A stretch of 64,000 nt of DNA from Phycisphaerales bacterium (GTDB lineage Bacteria > Planctomycetota > Phycisphaerae > Phycisphaerales > UBA1924), in contig JAPKGU010000002.1 in assembly GCA_026647565.1 (NCBI GenBank), positions 1 through 64,000 on the forward strand, in the 5' to 3' direction. A model generated the notes under the pieces. That model saw only the letters and a program-made list of their open reading frames with translations, was not told the DNA's origin and did no database searches. Of the stretch, positions 13,798 to 64,000 are shown in pieces; within the stretch, counting starts at the first letter, position 1; every line of letters starts with the position of its first letter. The translations under genes and the position numbers were made by a program.

Positions 13798-14801
13798 GGC
13801 CTCTGCGCACCCTCGCCGCCGTCGTCGCAGTGCTCGTGGTCGCCGTGGCCGGCTGCGACCGCCCCAAGACGCCACCGGACGCACCCGCACCAGACGCAGG
13901 CGTCAGCCGATCCGCGGGCAGCCCGCTCGCAACGCTGACCGTTCGGGTCCAGAGCGACACCATCGCCACGAGCGACCTCCTGAACGTCGACGCGATCGTG
14001 ACCGCGGCAGACGTCGCAAGAGTCAGCACGCCGGAACTCCCGTCCACGGATGCCCTCCGAGTCGTCGAATCCTGGGCGTCCCCGTCGGTCATGCGATCCG
14101 ACGGGTCCGTCGAGCAGGTGTGGAGCTTCAAGCTCGAACCGGATCTCCCCGGCACCTTCGAGCTCCCCGGCACGCGCGTGGGCGTGCGGAACGCCCAGAC
14201 CGGGGAAGTTTCGTTCCTCACCACCGAAGCGATCCCCATCACCGTGAGGTCCCTGCTCGATGCCGACGACGCCGCTGTCTCCGAGCTTCGCACCGTTCCC
14301 GCGCCGCCTCCGACGTCGGGCACGATCACCCAGACCATCGGCTCGCTGACCGCGGGCGTCGTGCTCGCCGCGATCGTGGTGCTCCTGCTCATCGCCGCAG
14401 GCGTCACGCTGCTCGTACGGCGAAACCGGGTTCGATCCATCATCCCCGGCTCCCGCCGCGAGCTCTCACGACTCATGCAGTCCGTCCCGGACCTCGACGG
14501 GACCGCTCGTGCCGCCGTGCTCGCGGACGCGTCCAGAATCCTCAGACGCTGCATCGCCGAGCGGGCCGGCGTCGATGCGACCACCATGACCATTGCCGAA
14601 ATGGCGTCCGCGTGCCCCGAGGTTCTCGAGCTCGGCCGGATCCGAGGCGCCCTCGAGGCGGTCGAATCGCATCTCTTCTCCGGCAGCCCCGTCGAGCCGG
14701 ATCTCGCCGAATCCGTCCTGCGATCCATCGACCAGTCGCTCGATGAACTCGCCACCTTCGTGCCCACGAAGTATGTGGACCCCATCGGGGGTGTCGCATG
14801 A
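13794..14801 (+). CDS. Predicted lipoprotein with BatD-like and C-terminal cytoplasmic part
   Basis: The 335-residue protein starts with a signal peptide ending in a lipobox (VAVAGC, Cys about residue 19). A beta-rich extracytoplasmic domain resembling BatD repeats follows (LTVRVQSDTIATSDLLNVDAIV, LPGTFELPGTRVGV). A second TM helix (about 185-207) and a helical C-terminal domain complete it. It fills the place usually held by a DUF4381-type protein in MoxR/Bat operons. Both ends overlap neighbours by 4 bp. A lipoprotein with a further TM segment is slightly unusual; the first segment may instead be an uncleaved anchor. Confidence 0.7.
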   Translation: MRPLRTLAAVVAVLVVAVAGCDRPKTPPDAPAPDAGVSRSAGSPLATLTVRVQSDTIATSDLLNVDAIVTAADVARVSTPELPSTDALRVVESWASPSVMRSDGSVEQVWSFKLEPDLPGTFELPGTRVGVRNAQTGEVSFLTTEAIPITVRSLLDADDAAVSELRTVPAPPPTSGTITQTIGSLTAGVVLAAIVVLLLIAAGVTLLVRRNRVRSIIPGSRRELSRLMQSVPDLDGTARAAVLADASRILRRCIAERAGVDATTMTIAEMASACPEVLELGRIRGALEAVESHLFSGSPVEPDLAESVLRSIDQSLDELATFVPTKYVDPIGGVA

Positions 14802-43110: not shown

Positions 43111-43284
43111 TGAGGCCGAGCAATCACCGTCGCTCGTGCGGCGCGGATACGCCGCACGCTTGCCGAGAGGCCCGTGGCACTCGGCGTGCCTGACGGCGCA
43201 CGCCCGCCGACCCCTCAGTCCCATTTCCCCGACACGCAATCAGCGCCTCCAGAAGACACGGAGTGTTCGACGGATCGGAGCCCG

Positions 43285-44379
43285 ATGATGCCGACTCCCA
43301 GCTCAGACGCACAGAAGGGTCGCCATCACGTGCATCGGCGCGCCGTGACCCGTCACGATTGCGCAGTCGAGGCGACCATGATCGCGTTGGACGGCAGCGG
43401 CGTCTCTGTCAAGGCCAGCATCGTCAACGTGGGTGAGGGTGGTGCCATGGTCAGGACGCACGCGGACGTGCTTCCCGGCCAGCGTTGGTGCCTCGCTCTG
43501 ACGCTTCCCGACGGCTCGAGGCACACCGCGTGCACCATCGTCCGCCGTGTCCGTGCGCACGAGGGCTCACGGCTCGCCGGACTCCAGTTCACACTCGACC
43601 CGTCGATCCTGCTCGCGATCGGTGTCCGCTGCGAGTCCCTCCGGGAGGACAGCCAGCTGCTCAGATCAGCAACGCCCCCGAGCTGGTCGCGCTCCCGAGG
43701 CGTCCAGGTCGCCCATCCGGTCCGCGTCAAGTCCCTCATTGCCTCCTGCCTCCACTCGACCGCCGATCTGACCATCGACGAACTCTGCATCGACTCGGAC
43801 CTGGACGTGCAGGGGCAGGTGATCGCCGACAGCGCCTGCATCATCGGCGGCACAACGCACGCCCTCAGCAGGATCTCGGTGGCGGAACTCGGCTCCCCGG
43901 ATGTGCGCCGCACCATCGTCGTCCTGGGTCGTTCCGAGATCATGCACACCATGATTCACGCCGCAGAGTGCGCGATCTCTCGCCTGCGGGAACAAGCCGA
44001 CGGCGGAGCAAAGCGACTCGCCGAGATGAGCGATCAGCAGGCAGAGGCACTCTCCGCTGCCGACCGCGAAGCGATCATGATCATGCGATTCGACCGTGAG
44101 GCCGCTGAGACCCAGATTGCAAGGATCGAACATAACAGTTCAATTGTGCGCCAGAGAGAGAACGCACTCCGGACCTGCGAGCTCCGCGTAGGACGCGCCA
44201 TCTACCCGGGTGTCGAATTAACCGCCGGCCAGCACACCGCGCGTTTCACGACGACCGTACAGGGCCCACTCATCGTCACCCTGGGGGCATCCGGAGATCT
44301 CGTGCTCGCGCCCGAAGGGGACGGCCGCGCAGCGATTGCCCCGACCGAGGTGGCGACCGTCACCCGCGCCGCCGCGTGA
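43285..44379 (+). CDS. PilZ domain - FapA/DUF342-like fusion protein
   Basis: The protein has 364 residues. A PilZ-like domain (about 15-130) starts RRAVTRHDCAVEAT and contains VNVGEGGAMVRT; PilZ domains bind cyclic di-GMP, though the N-terminal RxxxR box is only partly readable. A FapA-like right-handed beta-helix (about 140-235; IDSDLDVQGQVIADSACIIGGTTHA) follows, then a coiled coil (about 240-305) and a short beta end. GGAG precedes two adjacent ATGs (43285, 43288). In the chemotaxis operon it may connect second-messenger level to taxis. Confidence 0.75.
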   Translation: MMPTPSSDAQKGRHHVHRRAVTRHDCAVEATMIALDGSGVSVKASIVNVGEGGAMVRTHADVLPGQRWCLALTLPDGSRHTACTIVRRVRAHEGSRLAGLQFTLDPSILLAIGVRCESLREDSQLLRSATPPSWSRSRGVQVAHPVRVKSLIASCLHSTADLTIDELCIDSDLDVQGQVIADSACIIGGTTHALSRISVAELGSPDVRRTIVVLGRSEIMHTMIHAAECAISRLREQADGGAKRLAEMSDQQAEALSAADREAIMIMRFDREAAETQIARIEHNSSIVRQRENALRTCELRVGRAIYPGVELTAGQHTARFTTTVQGPLIVTLGASGDLVLAPEGDGRAAIAPTEVATVTRAAA

Positions 44380-44464
44380 CGCCCCAAGTCGCGTCTCTGG
44401 CTCAAGTAGCCCCGCACACGCTCCGATTCAAGGCACCTGCTCCAGCCCCCACTCGAGAGAGCTC

Positions 44465-47062
44465 GTGCGCGCGGACTCAATTCTAGATGTGTTGTCGAAG
44501 AAGGTCGTCCTCGTCGAAGAGGACGATCTGACGCTGCTCGTCGAGATCCACGATCACCTCGCGCAGCTGCGATCTGGCCTCGACGGCCCCACAGCCCATC
44601 CGGCACTCGAAGCCTTGGCGCACGCCGAGTCACTCACCGAGAAGCTCATCCAGCGATCCGCCGATGACGCCGCCGCGACGCTCAGGGACCTGCGAACTCG
44701 CGTCGATGCGATCCAGCGGGCGCTCGGCGCTGCAGCGGGTCCGGCGCCCGCAACCCTCAGCTCACAGGCGTCCGATGGACCCGCCGTCGCGCAGGCCGAC
44801 CACACCGGTCTTCTGAGCACATGGCTTGCCGACTGCACTCATGCTCTCAACGCCCTCGAAGAGACACTTCTCGCGATCGAGTCCGGCGTTGAGGTCGAGT
44901 CACACCTGACCGAGACACGGCGAAAGCTCCACACCCTCAAGGGCGAGTGCGGCGTCCTCTCGCTTCACACCGCCCAGTCCGTCCTCCACCAGGCCGAGAG
45001 CGCGGTCGACTGTGCCGGCTCCGCGCCGCCAGGGGAGACCACGGACGCCCTCTTGGCCGTGGTCGACTGGATGCGTGCGTACGCAGACCGGCTCGGCGAG
45101 GCGGCGAACGCCGCGCCTCCCGATCCGGACGCCCTTCTGGCCCGGCTCCGCACCATCCCGGCAGGGGCGAGACCGTTCGCCCAGGCCCCCGAGCGCCCCC
45201 CAGAGTCGCACAGTGCCAACGCCCCGGAAGACGCTCCGCAACCGACGGAAGCATCCGGCCGGCAAGGAGCGCACGTCTCCTTCACGGTCGATCCGAGTAT
45301 GGTGGACACCCTCGGCGAGTTCCTCGGCGAGGCACGCGAGCACCTCTCCAGGGCGGAGCAGGCGTTGCTCGAGCTTGAGCAGCAGCCCGGCGAACAAGAG
45401 CTGCTGAACACAGTGTTCCGTGCGTTCCACACGATCAAGGGCGTGGCCGGCTTCATGAATCTAGGCCCCGTCGTCTCGCTCGCGCACAGCGTCGAGTTCC
45501 TCCTCGACGCCGCCCGCGCCGGAAAGCTCGCGCTCCAACCCGAGCACCTGAGTGTCGTGCTCCAGGGCAGAGACCTCATGGACCACATGCTCTCCATGAT
45601 GGCCGGCGACGCGGTGCCGCCGATCGAGATCGCCACGTTGAACGCGCTCGTGGCCGCCATCGAGTCGCTGGCCAGCGGCACGCCCTCCACAGTCCCCGTG
45701 CCCGTCAGTCGGGACACCCACTCGGACATGACCCCGCCTCCGCCGGAGTCCGCCGGGGACGAATCGCCGACCATGCCCACCGCCCGGCAGCCCGGTGCAT
45801 CACCGTCCTCGCCACCAACCGTGGCCAGGCAGGATGTTCGCCGCGCGGACCAGACCGTGAAGGTCAGCACATCCCGAATGGACGCGCTCGTCGACATGGT
45901 CGGTGAACTGGTCATCGGATACCAGATGATCGCGCAGGATCCCGCGATCCAGACCATCGCCGAGCAGAGATCGCAGCGCAATCTGGCGATGGTGGGCAAG
46001 ATCATCCGCGACCTCCAGGAGGTCTCCATGTCGCTCCGAATGGTCCCGATCAAGGGGGCCTTCCAGCGCATGGCGCGCCTCGTCCGGGACGTCTCCGCCA
46101 AGACCGGGAAGCGAATCGAGTTCCGGAGCGAAGGAGACGACGTCGAGCTTGATCGAAACGTCGTCGAGGAGATCGCGGACCCGCTCGTTCACATGGTGCG
46201 CAACGCCTGCGACCACGGAGTCGAGGCCGCCGACCAGCGCCGCGCGGCTGGGAAGCCCGAGTCCGGTCGCATCACGCTCAGGGCCTTTCACTCCGGCGGC
46301 TGCATCGTGGTGGAGATCGAAGACGACGGCCGCGGCCTCTCTCGAGACAGAATCCTGGCCAAGGCCATCGAGAAAGGCATCTACGCACCTGATCGCCCGA
46401 TCGCCGAGATCTCGGACGCAGAGGTCTTCGACCTCGTCTTTCTCCCCGGGTTCTCAACGGCGGAGAAGGTGACGGACATCAGCGGTCGCGGCGTGGGCAT
46501 GGACGTCGTACGCCGCAACATCGAGGCCCTCCGCGGGAAGGTCGAGATTCGCTCGACGCTCGGCAAGGGCACCGTCTTCTCCATGCGCCTCCCCCTCACC
46601 ATGGCCATCATCGACGGAATGGTCGTTCGGGTCGGCTGCGAGCGCTTTGTCATCCCGACCCTCTCGATCGAGCGGACCATCATCCCGAAGCCCCAGGACC
46701 TCCACACCGTGGCCGGCTACGCCGAGATGGCCCTCGTCCGCGGCGATCTCCTGCCGATCGATGACCTGGCCGCGTGCCTGGGACGCGGTCAGACCGCAAC
46801 TCCCGCGCAGTCGCGTGTTCTGGTCATCGTCGAGACGAAGGGTGGCGGCGCCGGGTCGCGGGCGTGCCTCGCTGTTGACGAGATCATCGGACAGCAGCAA
46901 GTCGTCATCAAGAGCCTCGGAGACGCCGCGCCGCACGTGCCCGGCGTCTCGGGCGGCGCCATCCTCGGCGACGGCCGCGTCGCGCTGATCCTCGACATCG
47001 CCGGCGTGCTGAGAGGAGCGATCGCCGCGGCCGGACAGCCCTCCAAGGAGATCGCTCAATGA
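44465..47062 (+). CDS. cheA: Chemotaxis histidine kinase CheA with two HPt domains
   Basis: The protein has about 865 residues from GTG 44465. A helical N-terminal part precedes HPt domain 1 (LHTLKGE, His156) and HPt domain 2 (FHTIKGVAG, His322). Dimerisation and HATPase domains follow, with HMVRNACDHGVE (N box), DDGRGLS and GRGVGMDVV (G boxes). A CheW-like domain ends the protein. It autophosphorylates in response to receptors and passes phosphate to CheY and CheB. The start is uncertain, since no ATG precedes the conserved part; GTG 44489 is an alternative. The stop overlaps cheW by 4 bp. Confidence 0.93.
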   Translation: MRADSILDVLSKKVVLVEEDDLTLLVEIHDHLAQLRSGLDGPTAHPALEALAHAESLTEKLIQRSADDAAATLRDLRTRVDAIQRALGAAAGPAPATLSSQASDGPAVAQADHTGLLSTWLADCTHALNALEETLLAIESGVEVESHLTETRRKLHTLKGECGVLSLHTAQSVLHQAESAVDCAGSAPPGETTDALLAVVDWMRAYADRLGEAANAAPPDPDALLARLRTIPAGARPFAQAPERPPESHSANAPEDAPQPTEASGRQGAHVSFTVDPSMVDTLGEFLGEAREHLSRAEQALLELEQQPGEQELLNTVFRAFHTIKGVAGFMNLGPVVSLAHSVEFLLDAARAGKLALQPEHLSVVLQGRDLMDHMLSMMAGDAVPPIEIATLNALVAAIESLASGTPSTVPVPVSRDTHSDMTPPPPESAGDESPTMPTARQPGASPSSPPTVARQDVRRADQTVKVSTSRMDALVDMVGELVIGYQMIAQDPAIQTIAEQRSQRNLAMVGKIIRDLQEVSMSLRMVPIKGAFQRMARLVRDVSAKTGKRIEFRSEGDDVELDRNVVEEIADPLVHMVRNACDHGVEAADQRRAAGKPESGRITLRAFHSGGCIVVEIEDDGRGLSRDRILAKAIEKGIYAPDRPIAEISDAEVFDLVFLPGFSTAEKVTDISGRGVGMDVVRRNIEALRGKVEIRSTLGKGTVFSMRLPLTMAIIDGMVVRVGCERFVIPTLSIERTIIPKPQDLHTVAGYAEMALVRGDLLPIDDLAACLGRGQTATPAQSRVLVIVETKGGGAGSRACLAVDEIIGQQQVVIKSLGDAAPHVPGVSGGAILGDGRVALILDIAGVLRGAIAAAGQPSKEIAQ

Positions 47063-47571
47063 ACACCTCCGCATCGGTCGCTTCTATACGCCACCACGAT
47101 CGGGCAGGCGGGCAACGCGACAAGTTCCTGACCTTCTGCCTCGGTCGCGAGGAATACGGCCTGCCGATCCTCGTGGTCCGCGAGATCATCGGCGTGATCG
47201 ACATCACACCGCTCCCGAGGACTCCGGCCCACGTCAAGGGCATCATCAACCTCCGCGGGAAGATCATTCCCGTCATCGACCTGCGCGCCCGATTCGACCT
47301 TCCCCCTGTCGCGTACACGTCCAACACGTGCATCATCGTCGTGGAGAACACCGGTGCCGCTGGCGTTGTGACGCAGCTCGGAATCGTCGTCGACGCGGTC
47401 AGCGAAGTCCTCGACATCGACCAGAACTCCATCGAAGCCTCGCCGTCCTTCGGCGTCGCGATCCCCCAGTCGTACATCCTCGGGATGGGCAAGCTGAGGG
47501 AACGCGTCATCATCCTGCTCGACATCAACAGCGTCGGATCGATGCGGACGAGCGAGGATGCCGCGGCATGA
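47059..47571 (+). CDS. cheW: Chemotaxis coupling protein CheW
   Basis: The 170-residue protein is a single CheW domain (FLTFCLGREEYGLPILVVREII, TPAHVKGIINLRGKIIPVIDLR). It couples CheA to receptors. Both ends overlap neighbouring genes by 4 bp. Confidence 0.94.
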   Translation: MNTSASVASIRHHDRAGGQRDKFLTFCLGREEYGLPILVVREIIGVIDITPLPRTPAHVKGIINLRGKIIPVIDLRARFDLPPVAYTSNTCIIVVENTGAAGVVTQLGIVVDAVSEVLDIDQNSIEASPSFGVAIPQSYILGMGKLRERVIILLDINSVGSMRTSEDAAA

Positions 47572-48590
47572 GCTTCCTCCTCGGTCATCGCACCTCCACG
47601 CCCACCCGCCGAGCTGCCGGAGCGATCGGCGCGCTCGCCGCCAGCTCGCTGCCGATCCTCGCTCCCGCACCGTCCGCGCTCGCGATCTCGGCCCTTCCCG
47701 GCTCCGCTTCGCTCCAGCCAGAGACCTCCGATCCGCGCTCGGCCGCGTCCGATCCTTCCGCCGAGGCGCCACGAAGCCAGGTGTCGGAACCCGAAAGGGC
47801 CCGGCCGTCCGATCCCACGCCATCGCGCCTCCATCTCACCGCCGGAACCGATGTGGTCAGCGCGTACTACTTCCGAGGCATCCGCCAGGAGGACAGCGGC
47901 CTCATCGTCCAGCCGTACGCCGACTTCTCGCTCGATGTCCGTCGAACCGACTCAGCGACTATCTCATTCAAGCTGGGCACCTGGAACTCTCTTCATGGCC
48001 AGGCCACGTCCGCCGGCACCGACGACGATGCGACCGAACACTGGTACGAGGCCGACGTCTACGCCGGCGCTGGGGCCGTGATCGGCAAGTGGACGCTCGA
48101 CGCACGCTACACGTGGTATCTCAGCCCGAGCGATGCATTCGGCACGGTGGAGGAAGTCAGCTTCGGCGTCGCCTTCGACGACTCGGGGCATCTGGGTCGC
48201 TGGTCACTCCGACCGAGCGCGACGCTCGCGATCGAGACCGGCCCGCACGCCGCAGACGGAAGGCGCAACGGTGCGTACCTCCAGCTCGGCATCGCTCCCG
48301 GACTCACGCTCTCCGCCGGACGCATCGAGTCCATCGCAGTCGCCTTCCCCGCGCAGGTCGGCCTCAGTCTGTCGAACTACTACGAGGGCAGCGACGAGGA
48401 GAACGACACGTTCGGATACGCGTCGGTCGGCATCAGAGCCACCGTGCCCATACCGATCGGTCACTCATGGGGCCACTGGTCCTTCTACGGCGCGGCCCAG
48501 GGACTGCTCCTGGGCGACGCCGCGCGGAGTTTCAACGACGGCGACTCGGCCGAGCTGATCGGCTCTGTCGGTGTCTCGGTCTCTTTCTGA
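47568..48590 (+). CDS. Putative outer-membrane porin (TorF/TIGR02001-like)
   Basis: The 340-residue protein starts with a signal sequence (about 1-38). A Ser/Pro/Glu-rich linker follows to about residue 85. The rest is a beta-barrel pattern starting [22 protein letters not shown], with alternating beta strands and a terminal Phe. This opening resembles TorF/TIGR02001 putative porins. It is translationally coupled to cheW (ATGA), an unusual place for a barrel protein. What passes through it is unknown. Confidence 0.65.
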
Positions 48591-48645
48591 ACCATTCACA
48601 CACATCAAGGACACCCGACAACTTTCACTCTCAAGAGGTGTGCAC

Positions 48646-50415
48646 ATGAAACTGGCCAACATGCGACTCCGCACGAAGTTCCTGGCGCTCATCGCGCTGG
48701 TGGTGACGTCCATCGCCGGGCTCTCATTGGAGGGCTACATGACGACCCAGAAGATCCGCGTCGGTGGTCCCGCATACCAGGAGATCGTCATGAGCAAGGA
48801 CCTCCTGGCCGACATCCTCCCGCCTCCGGAGTACATCATCGAGAGCTACCTCACTCTGCATCTTCTGCCCGACTTCTCAGCCCCCAGCGAGCGACAGGCC
48901 CTCGTCGATCGGTTCGCTCAGCTGAAGGAGGAGTTCAACCAGCGCCTGCAGCACTGGAAAACCCAGCCCCTGGACGATGAGGCGCAATCGCTCCTGTTCG
49001 GCCCGGTGAGCGAGTCCGCTCAGCGGTTCTACGCCCTCGCGAATGATCAGTTCATCCCGGCCGTGATGAGCGGCAAGCTCGAAGAGGCCGACTTGGTGCT
49101 CACCAATGAGCTCCACGACGCTTTCATGCAGCACCGACGCGCCATCGACGAACTCGTGCAGGTCGCACTGCAGAGCTGCCAGACCGCAGAGCAGCACGCC
49201 GCCGCTGCCGTCGTAGCGGGCTGGCGTGTCATGGCCGTGGGGTGCGCCATCGCAATCGGCGCGGTCGTGGGTCTGTCACTCCTCATCGCCCGCAGCGTCA
49301 CGCGCCCGATGCTGGCGCTCGACGGCCGCCTGCGAGAGATCGCCAGCGGCGACGGAGATCTGACCAGCCGACTTGAAGTGACTGGGCGCGACGAGATCGG
49401 CCGCGTCGCCGAGTCGTTCAATGCATTCGTCGCCAAGATCGAACGCCTCGTCGGCGAGGTCAAGACCGCTACGGTCGAGATCGACGCCGGGGCGTCGCAG
49501 ATCTCCGGAGCAAGCCAGTCTCTGGCAGAGTCGTCGAGCGAACAGGCAGCAAGTCTGGAAGAGATCAGCGCCAGTGTCGAGCAGATGTCCGCAATGACGC
49601 AGCAGAACGCCGATAACGCGCGCCAGGCGAGCACCATGGCCCAGGGCGCCAAGCAGGCAGCCGACAAGGGACAGACCGAGATGCTGCAGATGGTCGCGGC
49701 CATGAACGAGATCAAGAGCTCGTCAACCGAGATCGGCAAGATCATCAAGGTCATCGACGAGATCGCCTTCCAGACCAATCTCCTCGCGCTCAACGCCGCT
49801 GTCGAGGCCGCCAGAGCCGGAGAGGCGGGCAAGGGCTTCGCCGTCGTCGCCGAAGAGGTGCGAGGCCTTGCCCAGCGATCCGCCGAGGCCGCCAAGAACA
49901 CATCCTCCATGATCGAGGAAGCCGCCAGACGCGCAAACGCGGGCGTTGAGATCGCCGGCGGCGTCGGCACGGTTCTCGACGAGATCGCTTCCGCCACCGG
50001 CAAGGTCAACTCCATTCTCGCCGAGATCGCTTCCGCATCCAGCGAGCAGGCCAAGGGCATCTCCCAGATCAACACGGGAATCAGCGAGCTTGACAAGTCC
50101 ACCCAGACGAACGCCGGCAACTCCGAGGAACTCGCGAGCGGCTCGCAGCAGACCGCCGCGCAAGTCGCGTCACTCCAGGACCTCGTGCGCCAGTTCCGAA
50201 CGACCGAAGACGCCCGCACGTCCGGCGCAGCAGGCCGCACGCCGATCGCCGCGTCGCGGGTCGGAATGGGCCGCGCCGGCCACGGTCCCTCGCTCGCACG
50301 CGGGCCGTCGCGCACCGGCATGAATGGCGCATCCCGGCGCGACGACACCTCACGCAAGGCCGCCGAACGCGCGATACCGCTCGACGCCGACGATGACGCG
50401 CTCGCCACCTTCTGA
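48646..50415 (+). CDS. Methyl-accepting chemotaxis protein
   Basis: The 589-residue protein has TM1 (about 12-30), a periplasmic four-helix-type sensor region (about 31-185), TM2 (about 187-212), a HAMP domain, and a signalling domain with the conserved tip [23 protein letters not shown]-terminal Arg/Gly/Ala-rich tail of about 60 residues follows. A CheR-docking pentapeptide of the NWETF type is not present. It senses an unknown ligand and controls CheA. AGAGG precedes the ATG. Confidence 0.94.
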
Positions 50416-50471
50416 GCCCGAGACCCTGCGCAGGCCGACTCACGCAGCATCGCCACCGACACGGTCACACG

Positions 50472-51293
50472 ATGGCAACACTCGCACCGTCACAGTTCGA
50501 GCGAATCGCGGAGATCGCCAAGAGGCGCTGGGGGCTCTGCTTCTCGGAGAAGAAACTCCCTCTCGTGACCAATCGTCTCGCGAGCTTCATTCGCCGCTCG
50601 CCTTTCAAGGATGTCCAGTCATACCTGGATCATCTCGAGAAGCACGCCTCCGAAGAGGACATGCTCGTCTTCTTCGACATCCTCTCCACCAACGTCACAA
50701 GCTTCTTCCGTGACCCCGCGCACTTCGAGTGCCTCGAACGCGAGTTCTTCACGCCGCTGGCCCGGGGGAACACTACCACCCCGGGTCGAAGGATCCGCAT
50801 CTGGTCGGCGGCGTGCTCGACCGGGCAGGAGCCGTACTCCCTCGCAATGTCCGCGTGCGAGAGTCTCCCGGATCTGGACTCCTGGGACGTGAAGATCCTC
50901 GGAACGGACCTCTCAAACTCGGCCGTCGCCCAGGCCAGGTCGGCGACTTACCCCGCCGACAAACTCGACGGCATTCCTCCTGCGATCGCCGAACGGCATC
51001 TCATCCACGATCGACGCGCGGGAACCGCCACGATCGCACCCCGTGCCCGCGGGCTTGTGACGATCGCCCGGCTCAATCTGATGGACGCATGGCCTTTCAA
51101 GAGCAAGTTCGACGTCATCTTCTGCCGAAACGTCATGATCTACTTCGACGCACCGACGCGACGAGACCTCGTCAAGAGGTTCCACGAACTCCTCCATCCC
51201 GGGGGCATCCTGGCGCTCGGCAGCTCCGAAAGTCTCGCGGGGCTCAACGCGCCCTTCACGCCGGTCCAACCCTCGGTCTATCGGTCCGCCTGA
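50472..51293 (+). CDS. cheR: Chemotaxis protein methyltransferase CheR
   Basis: The 273-residue protein has the N-terminal helical CheR domain and a SAM-binding domain with WSAACSTGQEPYSLAM, ILGTDLS and FDVIFCRNVMIYF. It methylates Glu residues of the MCP. Its stop overlaps the cheD start by one base (TGATG). Confidence 0.94.
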   Translation: MATLAPSQFERIAEIAKRRWGLCFSEKKLPLVTNRLASFIRRSPFKDVQSYLDHLEKHASEEDMLVFFDILSTNVTSFFRDPAHFECLEREFFTPLARGNTTTPGRRIRIWSAACSTGQEPYSLAMSACESLPDLDSWDVKILGTDLSNSAVAQARSATYPADKLDGIPPAIAERHLIHDRRAGTATIAPRARGLVTIARLNLMDAWPFKSKFDVIFCRNVMIYFDAPTRRDLVKRFHELLHPGGILALGSSESLAGLNAPFTPVQPSVYRSA

Positions 51294-51838
51294 TGGAGAC
51301 ACGCTTGCTCCAAGACCAAGCTCCATGGAAAGCACGACCCGTTGATCCGACGGGGAAACTGGTCGTGGGTGTCGCCGACCTGCTCGTATCCAGCGACCCC
51401 GACGGAACGATCATCACCCACGCCCTGGGTTCATGCATCGGCCTGACAGTCTACGACCCCGTCGCCCGCGTCGGTGGAATGCTGCACTACATGCTCCCGA
51501 GCGCCGACCTCAACAAGGAACGCGCGGAGGAATCGCCCGCGATGTTCGGCGACGCCGGCATACCGCTGCTGTTCCGGACCTGCTACGAGCACGGCGGCAA
51601 GAAGGAGCGGCTCATCGTCTGCGCCGCAGGAGGTGCCGAAGTCCTCAGCGCGGACGGGCACTTCAAGATCGGCTCACGCAACCGCACACTCCTCCGCAAG
51701 ATCCTGTGGAAGAACAACGTGCTGCTCGCCGCCGACGAGACCGGCGGCACGCAGAGCCGCACCCTCTCGCTCCGACTCTCCGATGGAATCGTCGCCGTCC
51801 GCTCCCAGGGAGTCGAGAGGCAGGTCTGGCCACTCTGA
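51293..51838 (+). CDS. cheD: Chemoreceptor glutamine deamidase CheD
   Basis: The 181-residue protein has the catalytic Cys in THALGSCIGL and His in GGMLHYMLP, which mark CheD. It deamidates receptor Gln residues and in other species also interacts with CheC. It starts one base inside the cheR stop. Confidence 0.92.
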   Translation: METRLLQDQAPWKARPVDPTGKLVVGVADLLVSSDPDGTIITHALGSCIGLTVYDPVARVGGMLHYMLPSADLNKERAEESPAMFGDAGIPLLFRTCYEHGGKKERLIVCAAGGAEVLSADGHFKIGSRNRTLLRKILWKNNVLLAADETGGTQSRTLSLRLSDGIVAVRSQGVERQVWPL

Positions 51839-51879
51839 CGCTCGAATCAGTCGCAGGCACCAAGCCCGGAGGTCCCACC

Positions 51880-52259
51880 GTGAGCTGCAACATCCTCATC
51901 GTTGACGACTCCTCGCTCCTTCGCAAGGCGGTCCGCCGCGTGGCCGAGATGGCCGGGGTGCCCGCCGAACGCCTCCGTGAGGCCGCAAACGGAAGGGAAG
52001 CGCTCGACGTCGTCGAATCCGAGTGGATCGATCTGGTGCTGCTCGACATCAACATGCCTGTCATGGACGGCGAACAGTTCGTACGGGAGCTCCGCCGGCG
52101 ACCGGATGTCGCTCAGACGCCGATCATCGTCGTGAGCACCGAGTCGAATGCCGAACGACTGCAGCGCCTCAAGGACATGGGCGTCACCGAGTTTCTCCGA
52201 AAGCCCTTCCAGCCCGAAGACCTCTGCCGCCTCATCTCAAAGCTCCTGGGAGTCAAGCC

Positions 52260-52263
<4 letters not shown>
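51880..52263 (+). CDS. CheY-type response regulator (second copy)
   Basis: The GTG start at 51880 with GGAGG seven bases upstream gives 127 residues. This is a single receiver domain with LIVDDSSLL, phospho-acceptor Asp in LVLLDINMPVMDG, VVSTES and Lys in LRKPFQPED. It differs clearly from the first cheY and overlaps the second cheX by 4 bp, so these two probably work as a pair. Confidence 0.9.
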
Positions 52264-53815
<1,552 letters not shown>

Positions 53816-56530: not shown

Positions 56531-57064
56531 GGCGGGTGGCACCGACCTCCTCCAAACCTCCGCCCCAAACACGCGGACCGCCGTGCCACCGAAGTTGCTG
56601 GCCTTGCGGCAAGTTCGGTGCTCGATCCGCAGACTTCGCCTCTCTCCCATTAACCCCGGCTCGCTTGCACATCCACTCGCCATCCGGCACACTCCCCGCA
56701 TGTACGAACAGGCGTCCCCACCTCACCCGCCGCGGGGCGAACCCCGCTTCTGGCAGCCCGGCGGCGGCTTCGACCACAACGTCCGCTCCGAGGCATCCCT
56801 CATCAAGATCATCAACGACATCCACAACAATCCCGTCGAGCGCGAACTCGTCGCCTCGCCGATCGAGTGGCGGTGGTCCAGCATTCACTGGTGGTTGAGT
56901 CGCGAGACGAGCCCCTGCCACAACCAGGGAGAATGCCGCGTCCCGTGCGACCTCCCGCGTGGCCGCATGTGGCGCACCTGGAAGCCGCGGACCGGCACAG
57001 CCGCCCGGTCAAGGAGAAAGGGCGGCCTTGAGACCGCCCATTTCCTAACGAATCGGGGGGACAG
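56531..57064 (+). repeat. Transposase-unit repeat, copy A (internally deleted)
   Basis: This unit matches 60942-61808: both start GGCGGGTGGCACCGACCTCC and end at CGAATCGGGGnGACAG. Outside these points the sequences diverge. Copy A lacks about 330 bp in the middle of the coding region. Confidence 0.85.
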
Positions 57065-60007: not shown

Positions 60008-60029
60008 CCCGCGAGCGGGGGCTCGCGGG
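60008..60029. terminator. Intrinsic terminator hairpin after the kinase gene
   Basis: A perfect 9-bp stem (CCCGCGAGC / GCTCGCGGG) with a GGGG loop lies 33 bp after the kinase stop, followed by CGTTCATTGTTC. The T tract is weak, so efficiency is uncertain. Confidence 0.65.
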
Positions 60030-60044
60030 CGTTCATTGTTCAAT

Positions 60045-60088
60045 CGGGGTGACAGGATTTGAACCTGCGACCTTCTCGTCCCGAAGCG
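60045..60088 (-). pseudogene. tRNA-Pro 3' half fragment (att-like), copy 1
   Basis: On the minus strand an anticodon loop TTCGGGA (CGG anticodon), a 5-nt variable region, a T stem-loop GCAGG-TTCAAAT-CCTGT and the acceptor strand CACCCCG are in the right order and lengths. The 5' half (D arm, matching acceptor strand) is absent. tRNA 3' halves are classic integrase target copies. Confidence 0.75.
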
Positions 60089-60191
60089 CGAGCACTATCT
60101 GAACGCCTTCCATAACCCACGTTACACGCGACAGTTACGAAAGGCGAGGAATGTCGCTCTTGCGCCCGTTTGCGCCGGGTTCCGCCCCGTT

Positions 60192-60209
60192 GCGCGGTGT
60201 ACACCGCGC
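60192..60209. repeat. 18-bp palindrome, copy 1
   Basis: GCGCGGTGTACACCGCGC is a perfect palindrome. It recurs at 61945-61962 and, with one changed base at the centre, at 62087-62104. Confidence 0.85.
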
Positions 60210-60212
60210 CAA

Positions 60213-60440
60213 TCATCTACAGAACTCATGCTGAGTGCGTACTCCGCGCCGTCCGTATCGCTGGATTTGTGGTCCGTCATTTCCAAGACGCATGTGCGGG
60301 AACGGCAGGATGTGGTCCGCGTTCAGCACCTCGCCGTACGCGTCGTACACCCACTGCCCCGCCACCTCGGCAACAGGCGTCGAGCCCTCGCCGGGATCAA
60401 CGATCGCAACCACGTCGCCGCGCCTTGAAAGGTCGATCAA
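60213..60440 (-). pseudogene. RHS-repeat protein fragment
   Basis: The minus strand encodes RRGDVVAIVDP, then QWVYDAYGEVLNADHILPFPHMRLG. This matches the conserved YDAYG segment near the end of planctomycete RHS-repeat core domains. After that the frame degenerates, and no toxin tip or upstream repeats remain. It is a remnant only. It sits downstream of an AT-rich small gene on the same strand. Confidence 0.65.
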
Positions 60441-60534
60441 GTACTACAGTAGAACGACTGCTTGAAGTCGGCAGCGCCGTGAACGAGTCCGGATCGAGTT
60501 TCTGAACACTACGATCCAGGGGTCCGCTCACGCA

Positions 60535-60918
60535 TCAATGACCGCGAGAATTGATCGCATTTCGCAACATTAGCATAAACCATCCCGGAGCGCGAAAGAT
60601 CCGTTCATCAAGGGAAACACTAACAAGTTTATCGCGATCACTATACAACCACGCGGACGATACGTCAATGGCAGTATCTTCCATAGAAATGATCTCATCC
60701 CATTTATAAACCCCGTCTGCGGTAGATACGCCGTCGCAATCACATGTGGCTTGCCAATCAACAGAAAGCCATTTGATTGTGTAACCCATAATCTCATTCA
60801 CGCTATCAAGACGAACATCATTGATGCGATAATTGACATCAATTTTGGGCCTCTTGGTTGGTCGGAATGTCGCATCAAGTAACCGGTGTAGTTCTTTCAA
60901 TATGCTTTTGTGATTCAT
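60535..60918 (-). CDS. Small AT-rich protein, possible RHS-toxin immunity protein
   Basis: The 127-residue soluble protein (MNHKSILKELHRLLDATFRP at the start, GWFMLMLRNAINSRGH at the end) is not recognised. GAAGGG precedes the ATG. Its base composition is visibly poorer in G+C than every neighbour, with codons such as AAT, ATA and TTT that are rare elsewhere in the window, so it was acquired recently. Size, composition and the RHS remnant beside it fit an immunity gene of a polymorphic toxin; this is inference. Confidence 0.6.
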   Translation of the reverse strand: MNHKSILKELHRLLDATFRPTKRPKIDVNYRINDVRLDSVNEIMGYTIKWLSVDWQATCDCDGVSTADGVYKWDEIISMEDTAIDVSSAWLYSDRDKLVSVSLDERIFRAPGWFMLMLRNAINSRGH

Positions 60919-61110
60919 TGCAAGCCCTTCACAGATCGAATGGCGGGTGGCACCGACCTCCTCCAACCCTCCGCCCCGAACACACGGACCGCCGTGCCAC
61001 CGAGGTTGGCCGCTCTGGGCCAAGCTCGGTGTCCGAACAACAGACTCCGCCCCCCTCCCATCAACCCCGGCTCGATTTGACATCCACTCGCCATCCGGCA
61101 CACTCCCCGC

Positions 61111-61791
61111 ATGTCCGAACACGCGTCTCCGCTGCCTCCGCCTGCCCGCCGCCGCATGCACCGGCGTGAGGGCACGGGCTCGCCCCGATTCCTCACCTTC
61201 TCCTGTTATCGGCGCGTCCAGCTCTTCCACCCATCCATTGCGGATCTCTTCGCGGACACCCTCGCCGCGGCACGCATGAAGCACCGCTTCGCGCTGCACG
61301 CCTGGGTCGTCATGCCCGAGCATGTCCACCTCCTCATCACCGCACACCCGGACCTCGACGTCGGCGCCGCACTCCGCTCCATCAAACTACCAGTCGCCAT
61401 CGAGGCCATCAAGCTGTGGACCGCCGAATCCGCCCGTCATGAGTTCACCCGCTCTCTCCCCACCGTCCACACGCCGCGGGGCGAACCCCGCTTCTGGCAG
61501 CCCGGCGGCGGCTTCGACCACAACGTCCGCTCCGAGGCATCCCTCATCAAGATCATCAACGACATCCACAACAATCCCGTCGAGCGAGAGCTCGTCGCCT
61601 CGCCGATCGAGTGGCGGTGGTCCAGCATTCACTGGTGGTTGAGTCGCGAGACGGGCCCCTGCCGCGACCAGGGGACACGCCGCGTCCCGTGCGACCTCCC
61701 GCGCGGCAACATGTGGCGGACCTGGAAGCCGCGGATCGGCACAGCCACCCGGTCAATGAGAAAGGGCGGCCTTGCGACCGCCCATTTCTAA
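61111..61791 (+). CDS. REP-associated tyrosine-transposase-like protein (RAYT, Y1/HUH fold)
   Basis: The 226-residue protein has a Y1-type transposase layout: FLTFSCYRRVQLF, the metal-binding HVH in MPEHVHLLI (residues 71-73), then SLIKIINDIHNNPVERELV and EWRWSSIHWW. In this family the nucleophilic Tyr normally stands at the start of the YIxxNP motif. Here that position is Asp151 (DIHNNP), and the deleted copy has the same residue. Activity is therefore doubtful or works differently. It would act on single-stranded hairpin DNA. Confidence 0.82.
   Translation: MSEHASPLPPPARRRMHRREGTGSPRFLTFSCYRRVQLFHPSIADLFADTLAAARMKHRFALHAWVVMPEHVHLLITAHPDLDVGAALRSIKLPVAIEAIKLWTAESARHEFTRSLPTVHTPRGEPRFWQPGGGFDHNVRSEASLIKIINDIHNNPVERELVASPIEWRWSSIHWWLSRETGPCRDQGTRRVPCDLPRGNMWRTWKPRIGTATRSMRKGGLATAHF
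61764..61783. terminator. Hairpin at the 3' end of the transposase gene
   Basis: GGGCGG and CCGCCC pair around an 8-nt loop, with AAA before and ATTT after. It overlaps the last codons of the transposase and recurs in copy A at 57020-57039. It may serve as a terminator or as a recognition hairpin of the element. Confidence 0.5.
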
Positions 61792-61797
61792 ACGAAT

Positions 61798-61841
61798 CGG
61801 GGTGACAGGATTTGAACCTGCGACCTTCTCGTCCCGAAGCG
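61798..61841 (-). pseudogene. tRNA-Pro 3' half fragment (att-like), copy 2
   Basis: This is the same 44 bases as the first fragment, from the anticodon loop to acceptor strand CACCCCG. The expected 5' half is replaced by unrelated sequence, so this is no functional tRNA. Confidence 0.75.
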
Positions 61842-61944
61842 ACTTAGCTACTTGGACGCGTTCCATAACCCACGCTAGCGGAGACAGTTACGAAAGGCGA
61901 GGGATGTCGCTCTTGCGCTCGTTTGCGTTGGCTTGCGCCCAGTT

Positions 61945-61962
61945 GCGCGGTGTACACCGCGC
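61945..61962. repeat. 18-bp palindrome, copy 2
   Basis: It is identical to the palindrome at 60192-60209 and lies at the same place inside the direct repeat. Confidence 0.85.
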
Positions 61963-62186
61963 CGCATGAGCATCCGCATGGATGCGCGGCGCTGATCGCG
62001 CATGTACTCGCTCGTTCTGGAGCGACGCACACGCCGGAATGGCGACATTTCTGGGGAGCGTTCGTCGCTCAGAACTCGCAGCAACAGCGCGGTGTGCACC
62101 GCGCCCAGCATCGGGGGTCACGAAGCGGACTCGCTGAGGCTTCCGAAACGGCTGGGATGAGGACAACCCCTAGTGGCGCACGAGGC
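61963..62186. other. Non-coding stretch between palindromes and TIR gene
   Basis: No supported gene is present. It contains the third palindrome and further short inverted segments. Several small open frames on both strands show no recognisable motif. It could be decayed coding sequence of an integrase upstream of the tRNA fragment, but no integrase motif was found. Confidence 0.4.
62087..62104. repeat. 18-bp palindrome, copy 3 (one base changed)
   Basis: GCGCGGTGTGCACCGCGC pairs over 8 bp on each side. It lies 142 bp from copy 2 and outside the direct repeat. Confidence 0.8.
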
Positions 62187-63074
62187 TCAGGAGAGACTAT
62201 TGGGGGTTGATCTGCGAGGAAACTGCGCGATGAGGTGTGCGATCGCCTCTTCGGCTGTTCGTCCATGTCCGCCGGATATACTGGCCATGCTCGCGAGTTC
62301 TGTCTTGGCGACGGCCCAAGCGAGAAAGACGCGTCCGTCTCCGCGCGTGTGAATGTCGAAATCATCCAGCGAAGGAAACTCAGGGCTCTTTCGGCAAAGG
62401 CGCGACTTGTATCCATCGATCGATTCGTAACCGCACTCGAAGCGGTCGATACGGGAATCGCCGTACTCGTGTTCCATGATGCCCGTGCTGGACAGATCCG
62501 CCTTGCAGGTGGGACACTGGAATCTCTCTAGAGCATCTTGGGCCTGTTGCAGGCGGTCCTCGGCCGCATCGATCTGAGCCTGCAGACAGGCGATTACGTC
62601 TTCCCCAACCTGCCGCTGGAGATCGGCACGCGAATGTGCTAGGTATCGGGCGGGATCAACGCACTGCAGGATCTGCAGGGCCAGTGTCGCAGCGTCGGTG
62701 CCGTGGGTGCGCAATGCCATCTTATCTGCAAGCGAAGGGCTGACTTCTGCGACCTCCTGACGGGAGACTCCGTGCCATACCGGGATTATGGTGGAGCTCT
62801 GATCGATCTCACGTGCGACCAGCCCTCGGAGTTCCTGCCGCGGCCACTGTTTCTGAAAAAACCAGGGGCTCAGAATGACGAGTCCAAAGTGAGACGACGC
62901 CAACCCCCTGTCGATCGACTCGGACAGGCTGTCCCCAGGCTTGAGTGTGAACTCGTCATACCACACCCGAAGGCCGAGATTCCGAAGCGCTATCGCTAGT
63001 TCACGTACAAGCAGCTCTTTGTCCTCAGAAGCGTGTGAGATGAACACGTCGTACTTCGTAGGCACATGACCCAT
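62187..63074 (-). CDS. TIR domain protein with coiled coil and cysteine-rich C-terminal part
   Basis: The 295-residue protein has an N-terminal TIR domain: YDVFISHASEDKELLV, VWYDEFTLKPGDSL, LVILSPWFFQKQWPRQELRG. Glu81 of the WPRQEL segment is at the place of the NADase catalytic Glu of bacterial TIR proteins. A coiled coil (about 150-184) follows, then Cys187, Cys190, Cys214 and Cys227, which could bind zinc. NAD+ depletion on infection is the known role of many such proteins. It lies 107 bp downstream of a DUF499 gene on the same strand, as expected for a defence locus. Confidence 0.85.
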   Translation of the reverse strand: MGHVPTKYDVFISHASEDKELLVRELAIALRNLGLRVWYDEFTLKPGDSLSESIDRGLASSHFGLVILSPWFFQKQWPRQELRGLVAREIDQSSTIIPVWHGVSRQEVAEVSPSLADKMALRTHGTDAATLALQILQCVDPARYLAHSRADLQRQVGEDVIACLQAQIDAAEDRLQQAQDALERFQCPTCKADLSSTGIMEHEYGDSRIDRFECGYESIDGYKSRLCRKSPEFPSLDDFDIHTRGDGRVFLAWAVAKTELASMASISGGHGRTAEEAIAHLIAQFPRRSTPNSLS

Positions 63075-63181
63075 GCATTGACCCCATCGCGATCGCCGTC
63101 CGTCAGGGTGTAACGAGAAACGTCTCCACACCCCGTCTCCCCCTCAGCCTTCTCAGGGCGGGGCGAGTATTTGGTCGAGGC

Positions 63182-64000
63182 TCATTCGGCCTCGAACCCA
63201 TGACTCTTGAACTTGAGCACCCGGCAGTTCTCCGTCACAGCCCGCACCGTTGGCTGGTCAACTCCGTCAGGCACTTCAACCTGTATCTCAACGGTGACCA
63301 TGACATTCGCGTCCTTGAGTCCCGTGAGGTGGGATAGAACCTCCTGCGCGATGCGACCAGCGTCTCGCCCCAGCCGCGTCGCATCCACCTCTACCACACC
63401 GAAGAAGCGGGTCGGAGCCGAAGACGTTGCGCGACTAATTCCGGTGGTGGGAAGCCCGACCCCGCCAGAGCCCGGCACTGGCGGCGGCTCGCCTCCGACC
63501 TGCACACCGCTCGGGGGATCGCCTCCCGGCACAGGCACAGCGTCAGCCGTCTGCTGGCGGCTCGCCGTCTCCGACTTCACAACCAGACTCTTCCCATCCG
63601 CCACGACCATGTCGATGTTCGCCGTGCGCAAGCCAACAAATCGCTTCTTCTTGTCGTCGTAGAAGTCGGCATACCCGAAGCCCTCACTCTGCCATGTCAA
63701 TCTGCTCACGCCGTCTCGCACGGCGTCGAGCAGGACCTGAGGAGACTTCACCCGAGGCAGATACAGGTACTGCGCGAAGTCGTCAACGAGTTGTTTCACC
63801 GAGACACTCTCGCCCCGCCAAAGGGGAACTCGATCCAATTCCATCCGCAGGAGCGTCCCGGCGTATCGAGTCGCCAGGCCACCATCGTTGATGAGCTTCT
63901 TCGACGCACGAGGCGCAAGCCAGTCCGCCCCTTGCAGACGAACCTCGCTCCACTCGACCGGTGCTTGTGTGCTCGGTTGTCCCGGCACGAGCAGCCACTG
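63182..64000 (-). CDS. DUF499 family ATPase, C-terminal part (partial, 5' end outside window)
   Basis: The frame is open to the right edge. The visible 272 or so residues match the C-terminus of DUF499 proteins: EWSEVRLQGADWLAPRASKKL, RMELDRVPLWRGESVSVKQL, FAQYLYLPRVKSP, FGYADFYDDKKKRFVGLR, RIAQEVLSHLTGL and a final TENCRVLKFKSHGFE. A Pro/Gly-rich linker lies in the middle. The family are large P-loop ATPases found in defence islands with DUF1156 methyltransferases, DUF3780 and helicases; those partners would lie to the right of the window. Confidence 0.82.
   Translation of the reverse strand, partial: QWLLVPGQPSTQAPVEWSEVRLQGADWLAPRASKKLINDGGLATRYAGTLLRMELDRVPLWRGESVSVKQLVDDFAQYLYLPRVKSPQVLLDAVRDGVSRLTWQSEGFGYADFYDDKKKRFVGLRTANIDMVVADGKSLVVKSETASRQQTADAVPVPGGDPPSGVQVGGEPPPVPGSGGVGLPTTGISRATSSAPTRFFGVVEVDATRLGRDAGRIAQEVLSHLTGLKDANVMVTVEIQVEVPDGVDQPTVRAVTENCRVLKFKSHGFEAE

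Follow-up and report, generated by a model that had tools for sequence, protein, structure and literature searches.

The two direct repeats near the right end of the window, by which the whole analysed stretch of 64,000 nucleotides of a Phycisphaerales contig (C112) is meant, are very probably attR-type junctions of integrative elements that an integrase has stacked at the anticodon loop of a tRNA-Pro(CGG) gene. This tRNA gene is a repeatedly used landing site in the Planctomycetota family concerned, and the islands examined carry anti-phage genes. Both tandem islands at tRNA genes and accretion that involves decayed elements have been described before (PMC4383910, PMC5704250), and tandem arrays are a recognised sub-case of tRNA-targeted islands (PMC4383910). 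Nothing specific was found in the literature on planctomycete tRNA islands. New here are the Planctomycetota element family, its recurrent use of tRNA-Pro(CGG) across the family, its defence cargo and, presumably, the palindrome-marked element ends. A recurrent integration hotspot is mapped in a little-studied bacterial family, and because the element ends are exactly defined by the tRNA half, the arm repeats and the palindromes, such islands can be cut out of other genomes.

The repeat pair and the intact tRNA-Pro(CGG) gene

The repeats (60042-60210 and 61795-61963) comprise 169 nt each and align without gaps at 87% identity. As the earlier note had stated, both open with one shared tRNA-Pro 3′ half: they agree in all of the first 44 nt (44/44) and in 82% of the 123 nt that follow, where 22 of the non-tRNA positions differ. 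ARAGORN called no tRNA in the window, and no PF00589 integrase is listed on contig C112, in agreement with the same note, which had seen neither an intact tRNA-Pro gene nor an integrase in the window. A scan of the window end against Rfam gave no match.

The source genome is a metagenome-assembled genome (MAG) of 3.94 Mb in 265 contigs, 89% complete. The intact tRNA-Pro(CGG) gene, for which a search had been advised, is located on another contig of this MAG (C215:13441-13514), and the window halves match it at 42 of 42 positions, in a block that opens with the first anticodon-loop base (loop TTCGGGA) and closes with the discriminator base. The best ungapped match of the 42-nt half elsewhere in the 69-kb contig C112 reaches only 23-26 of 42, so the match at the two window sites is not due to chance. 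The whole genome contains three close copies, namely the intact gene and the two window copies. An origin of the 44-nt block from an unrelated dispersed repeat family, which the earlier note had named as the refuting case, was rejected because there are only these three.

Directly downstream of the intact gene, on the same strand, a tyrosine integrase of 538 aa is encoded (C215:11799-13412; PF00589, E 2.6e-10; phrog_1, E 6e-25). Behind it are encoded an unknown protein and a DUF1580-like one, then a Prim-Pol/AAA protein, a ParB-methylase and a product that weakly matches a small terminase subunit (phrog_2538, E 7e-8). It was not possible to recognise a head, tail or large-terminase gene among the genes scanned. 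No relatives of the integrase type were found in IMG/VR, plasmid or phage searches, nor of the Prim-Pol protein in IMG/VR, and phage and IMG/VR scans gave no relatives of the element. Attachment sites of tyrosine integrases in the anticodon loop are a described class in tDNA islands (PMC4383910). Judged by its sequence, the tRNA half of the window belongs to this class.

Read on the minus strand, which is the tRNA sense, the order of features is an HmaB-like methylase, an HmaC-like ATPase, a TIR protein, a right end with the tRNA half at 61796, a remnant of 1.6 kb, a right end with the tRNA half at 60043, a terminator-like hairpin and a kinase gene (Table 1).

Table 1. Features at and around the two tRNA-Pro(CGG) junctions, in window coordinates
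Feature	Position	Strand	Basis
Second REP-associated tyrosine transposase (RAYT) copy, internally deleted	56531..57064	+	93% identical over 352 bp, including CGAATCGGGG(G/T)GACAG
Terminator-like hairpin directly past the tRNA 3′ end of att2	60008..60029	-	Like the hairpin behind intact tRNA-Pro(CGG) in G007 and G139
tRNA-Pro(CGG) 3′ half at the outer junction, att2 (displaced copy 2)	60044..60085	-	42/42 identical to intact gene, first anticodon-loop base to discriminator base
Integrative-element right end (arm region) at att2	60086..60209	-	82% to the other copy; aligns with right ends of G001, G002 and G003
Four TTGCGC-like repeats, 10-bp spacing, candidate integrase arm sites	60160..60195		Sequence inspection and right-end alignment
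Palindrome GCGCGGTGTACACCGCGC	60192..60209		Element-end palindrome pattern search
Bracketed remnant without integrase	60210..61795		No integrase; no conserved left end beside att1
So-called RHS remnant	60213-60440	-	No Pfam/NCBIfam match
AT-rich gene	60535-60918	-	No Pfam/NCBIfam match
REP-associated tyrosine transposase (RAYT)	61111..61791	+	PF01797, E 1.1e-7; NF047646, 84 bits (cut-off 80)
tRNA-Pro(CGG) 3′ half at the inner junction, att1 (displaced copy 1)	61797..61838	-	42/42 identical to intact gene
Full-length right end of the element lying beyond 61962	61839..62105	-	About 310 bp including the tRNA half; 76-79% to G001 and G003 right ends
Four TTGCGY repeats, 10-bp spacing, candidate arm sites	61913..61948		Sequence inspection and alignment
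Palindrome GCGCGGTGTACACCGCGC	61945..61962		Element-end palindrome pattern search
Second right-end palindrome GCGCGGTGTGCACCGCGC	62087..62104		Element-end palindrome pattern search
TIR-domain protein, cargo of the element beyond att1	62187..63131	-	PF13676, E 1e-21; PADLOC PDC-S66 and ThsB matches
HmaC-like DUF499 ATPase, start	63182..64000 (on to 66562)	-	PADLOC HmaC, 1027 bits; Pfam DUF499

Element ends and tandem arrays in related genomes

The right end at 61796-62105 is 76-79% identical to sequences in two genomes of the same genus (G001:1489752-1490065, G001:1520572-1520881 and G003:903801-904109). Each of these right ends is joined to the same tRNA-Pro half, and the versions in G002 are shorter. 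In the conserved part, TTGCGC-like repeats recur at 10-bp intervals, together with two palindromes of 18-19 bp. The repeats and palindromes may be arm sites for the integrase or accessory proteins, or an operator.

A whole-genome search of four same-genus genomes with the palindrome pattern GCGCGGTGTN{1,3}CACCGCGC gave 7, 10, 9 and 7 occurrences, both strands being counted, and a reversed control pattern gave none in the same genomes. Almost all sites lie at element ends. The palindrome is present once per left end, just ahead of the integrase ATG, and is also found at right ends. Only two sites, C30:34035 and C39:2249 of G002, depart from this, and the latter adjoins an apparent truncated left end. 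At C30:34035 (L236, approximately 1480-1760) a left end with an integrase of the same family and the palindrome stands beside a different tRNA-like half, in which ARAGORN called no tRNA; the element family may have switched its target there.

The tandem order of elements is visible in G001 (JAHBWV010000001, a Phycisphaeraceae MAG), where a single contig contains the intact tRNA gene at 1555299, element A with an integrase, a 3′ half at 1520574 (34.7 kb), element B, which has an integrase of its own, a 3′ half at 1489759 (65.5 kb) and then the displaced native terminator CTTGTTTCAGAGTAAAGCCCTTCGATGAGCACATCGAAGGGCTTT. In G018 and G015 an almost identical terminator follows tRNA-Pro immediately, and in those two genomes no second tRNA half was found within about 18 kb of tRNA-Pro. 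Each of the G001 elements also contains a second, shorter PF00589 recombinase (G001:C1:1505232-1506059 and 1535450-1536271).

In G001 and G003 the displaced halves lie downstream of the tDNA on one replicon with it and share its orientation. In the source genome, the tRNA half is likewise a 3′ end fragment, with the intact gene and the fragments on different contigs. G003 and G002 each contain at least one displaced half joined to a matching right end. Eight more genomes of the family (G075, G113, G124, G087, G129, G120, G139 and G073) possess displaced halves, in one orientation per contig, and the block begins at or within one base of the start of the anticodon loop in all of them, a single divergent copy in G075 being the exception. 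In G124, G120, G087 and G075 the tRNA has a related integrase beside it; the intact tRNA gene of G073 was not found on the two stretches examined. The suggestion that the window repeats are traces of successive insertions thus gains support from the G001 elements, split by 3′ halves of one orientation, and from the similar situation in these eight genomes.

In some G002 copies, all that is left of tRNA-Pro is its last 11 nt, which adjoin another shared sequence (L240 1490-1500; G002:C2, approximately 14150-14170). This suggests a second integrase class with another crossover point, at the acceptor/T-arm end of tRNA-Pro.

Origin of the window pair and of the bracketed remnant

Very probably, the tyrosine integrase of this element family recombines within the anticodon loop of tRNA-Pro(CGG). 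An incoming element would bring its own tRNA 3′ half and restore the gene, the old half being pushed to the far end, and repeated insertion would produce a head-to-tail stack to which every element contributes one displaced 3′ half. The 120-310 bp or so beside each half are the conserved right end of an element, with its 10-bp repeats and palindromes. The inner junction at 61796 would mark the end of the element with the defence genes for TIR and Hma-type proteins, and the outer one at 60043 that of an older element, which has presumably decayed to about 1.6 kb, lost its integrase, gained a REP-associated transposase and become immobile. The assumption that the 3′ halves are att scars of an integrase is borne out by the start of the block at the anticodon loop, the integrase beside the intact gene and the tandem elements in genomes of the same genus.

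The earlier note had regarded the repeats as brackets of a small island. The junctions with tRNA halves are confirmed; however, both copies are of the right-end type, and the bracketed 1.6 kb is therefore a decayed remnant and not an element with two ends of its own. As there is no integrase and no conserved left end in it, the segment most plausibly represents what is left of an older insertion after decay. Its described content (an RHS remnant, an AT-rich gene and a transposase) was confirmed in part. The transposase is a RAYT, which stops 5 nt from the tRNA end of att1. No Pfam or NCBIfam family was found for the AT-rich gene or for the putative RHS remnant, in the latter case even at relaxed thresholds, so that the RHS label is unproven.

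Both RAYT copies (56531-57064 and 60942-61808) end at the tRNA-end-like sequence CGAATCGGGG; in the internally deleted copy this is a 12-nt trace (57053-57064). Short pieces of the RAYT upstream flank (60930-61070) are dispersed on contigs C146, C51, C257, C38, C220 and C237 of the same genome. Such dispersal is expected of REP sequences. The transposase resembles known RAYTs in passing the NF047646 cut-off and in these scattered flank pieces, but it is a passenger in the remnant and not the cause of the tRNA repeats.

The shared tRNA-end-like ending of the RAYT copies (57053-57064 and 61797 onward) shows that this block was copied at least once, which would suit an ordinary duplication of one element end with its tRNA half, for instance by recombination between the transposase copies, in place of two insertions. 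Such an origin is unlikely, since outside the identical tRNA halves the two junctions agree at only 82%, hardly more than the 76-79% shared with right ends of other genomes, and since the relatives hold independent tandem elements with their own integrases.

The surroundings of the pair bear on its genomic position. The native outer flank of the tRNA-Pro locus was found at the start of contig C92; it has a type I terminator, matches the G001 flank at 80% identity and is followed by a decayed tRNA 3′ half. The outer junction at 60043 was considered as the native chromosomal border, a reading favoured by the hairpin that follows it, and was dropped, because the native terminator and flank are on C92. 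Below 60043, C112 runs into a UvrD region, which in G001 is situated about 400 kb from tRNA-Pro, and positions 1-60 kb show no synteny with the tRNA-Pro flank of G001 or G003. No left end or integrase of either window element is in view. Given the flank on C92 and the distant UvrD region, it is possible that the pair has been rearranged, that the flank is the left end of another, older element, or that the contig is chimeric. The last explanation, with C112 joined at a tRNA half or repeat and the pair or the left flank an artefact, would accord with the fragmentation of the MAG into 265 contigs and the non-syntenic left flank; it is nevertheless quite improbable, as the 22 differences in 123 non-tRNA positions make the copies distinguishable, each junction corresponds to element ends known from other genomes, and the UvrD gene of C112, 83-84% identical to those of G001 and G003, points to the right organism. 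A chemotaxis-type cluster was noted at 43174-53815 of the window; no close ortholog of its CheB-like gene was found in three genomes of the same genus, where the best identity was 40%.

That the halves are merely decayed or duplicated tRNA genes arising without an integrase, as the decayed 3′ half on C92 might suggest, is hardly credible: all but two of the many copies begin exactly at the anticodon loop (one begins a base later and one is divergent), each group of copies is joined to conserved element-end sequence, an integrase gene follows several of them, and the tandem arrays in G001 and G003 refute it.

Likeness to known elements and defence cargo

The stacked elements resemble the anticodon-loop islands described by Islander (PMC4383910) in the intact tDNA with a displaced 3′ fragment of the same orientation, in the crossover region at the anticodon loop and in the tyrosine integrase adjoining the intact gene, which is seen on C215 and in both G001 elements. 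In contrast to those islands, the window holds far ends only, and the integrase and intact tRNA gene are on another contig. The remnant is also reminiscent of CIME accretion (PMC5704250), where a later insertion and an integrase-less decayed element share one tRNA site in tandem arrangement. However, a CIME, having lost its integration and transfer genes, keeps both attL and attR, whereas both visible junctions of the remnant are of the right-end type, with no conserved left end beside att1. The elements examined have no recognised conjugation genes.

Satellites of the type of phage-inducible chromosomal islands possess an integrase, a replication gene and a packaging gene, lack structural genes, and are induced and packaged by a helper phage. 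The C215 element is similar to them in its integrase, Prim-Pol/AAA gene, weak small-terminase match and lack of recognised head, tail and large-terminase genes, but the elements are 30-35 kb in size, with defence and host-like cargo, and no helper phage is apparent.

Beyond the HmaC-like ATPase, an HmaB-like methylase (PADLOC HmaB, 538 bits) extends to the contig end, C112 ending at 68946 inside its gene. At the equivalent place, element B of G001 carries AbiD, type I RM and Drt4, and element A carries MmeI-like, RhuM-family and MkoA-like genes. The three elements with visible cargo thus have different anti-phage systems in the right part of each. From this gene content, the tRNA-Pro(CGG) site looks like an exchange point of defence genes, so the junctions can be used for finding more defence islands.

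A broader reading can be offered only tentatively and is rather doubtful. In a Phycisphaeraceae-like family, tRNA-Pro(CGG) might serve as a permanent stacking site for satellite-like elements (with an integrase, Prim-Pol, ParB-methylase and a small-terminase-like gene, but no virion genes) that exchange anti-phage systems at their right ends, and the palindrome of 18-19 bp, with a single copy at the left end, immediately ahead of the integrase start codon, and two copies at the right end, might couple integrase control to end recognition.

A block of 16.4 kb carrying type I RM, Drt4 and AbiD is 99.98% identical between G001 (C1:1489756-1506165) and G003 (C1:903800-920209) and ends exactly at the tRNA end, and the two genomes are approximately 87-95% identical elsewhere. 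In G003, this shared outermost G001 material is followed by an integrase-bearing remnant. The common block is probably the result of a recent transfer.
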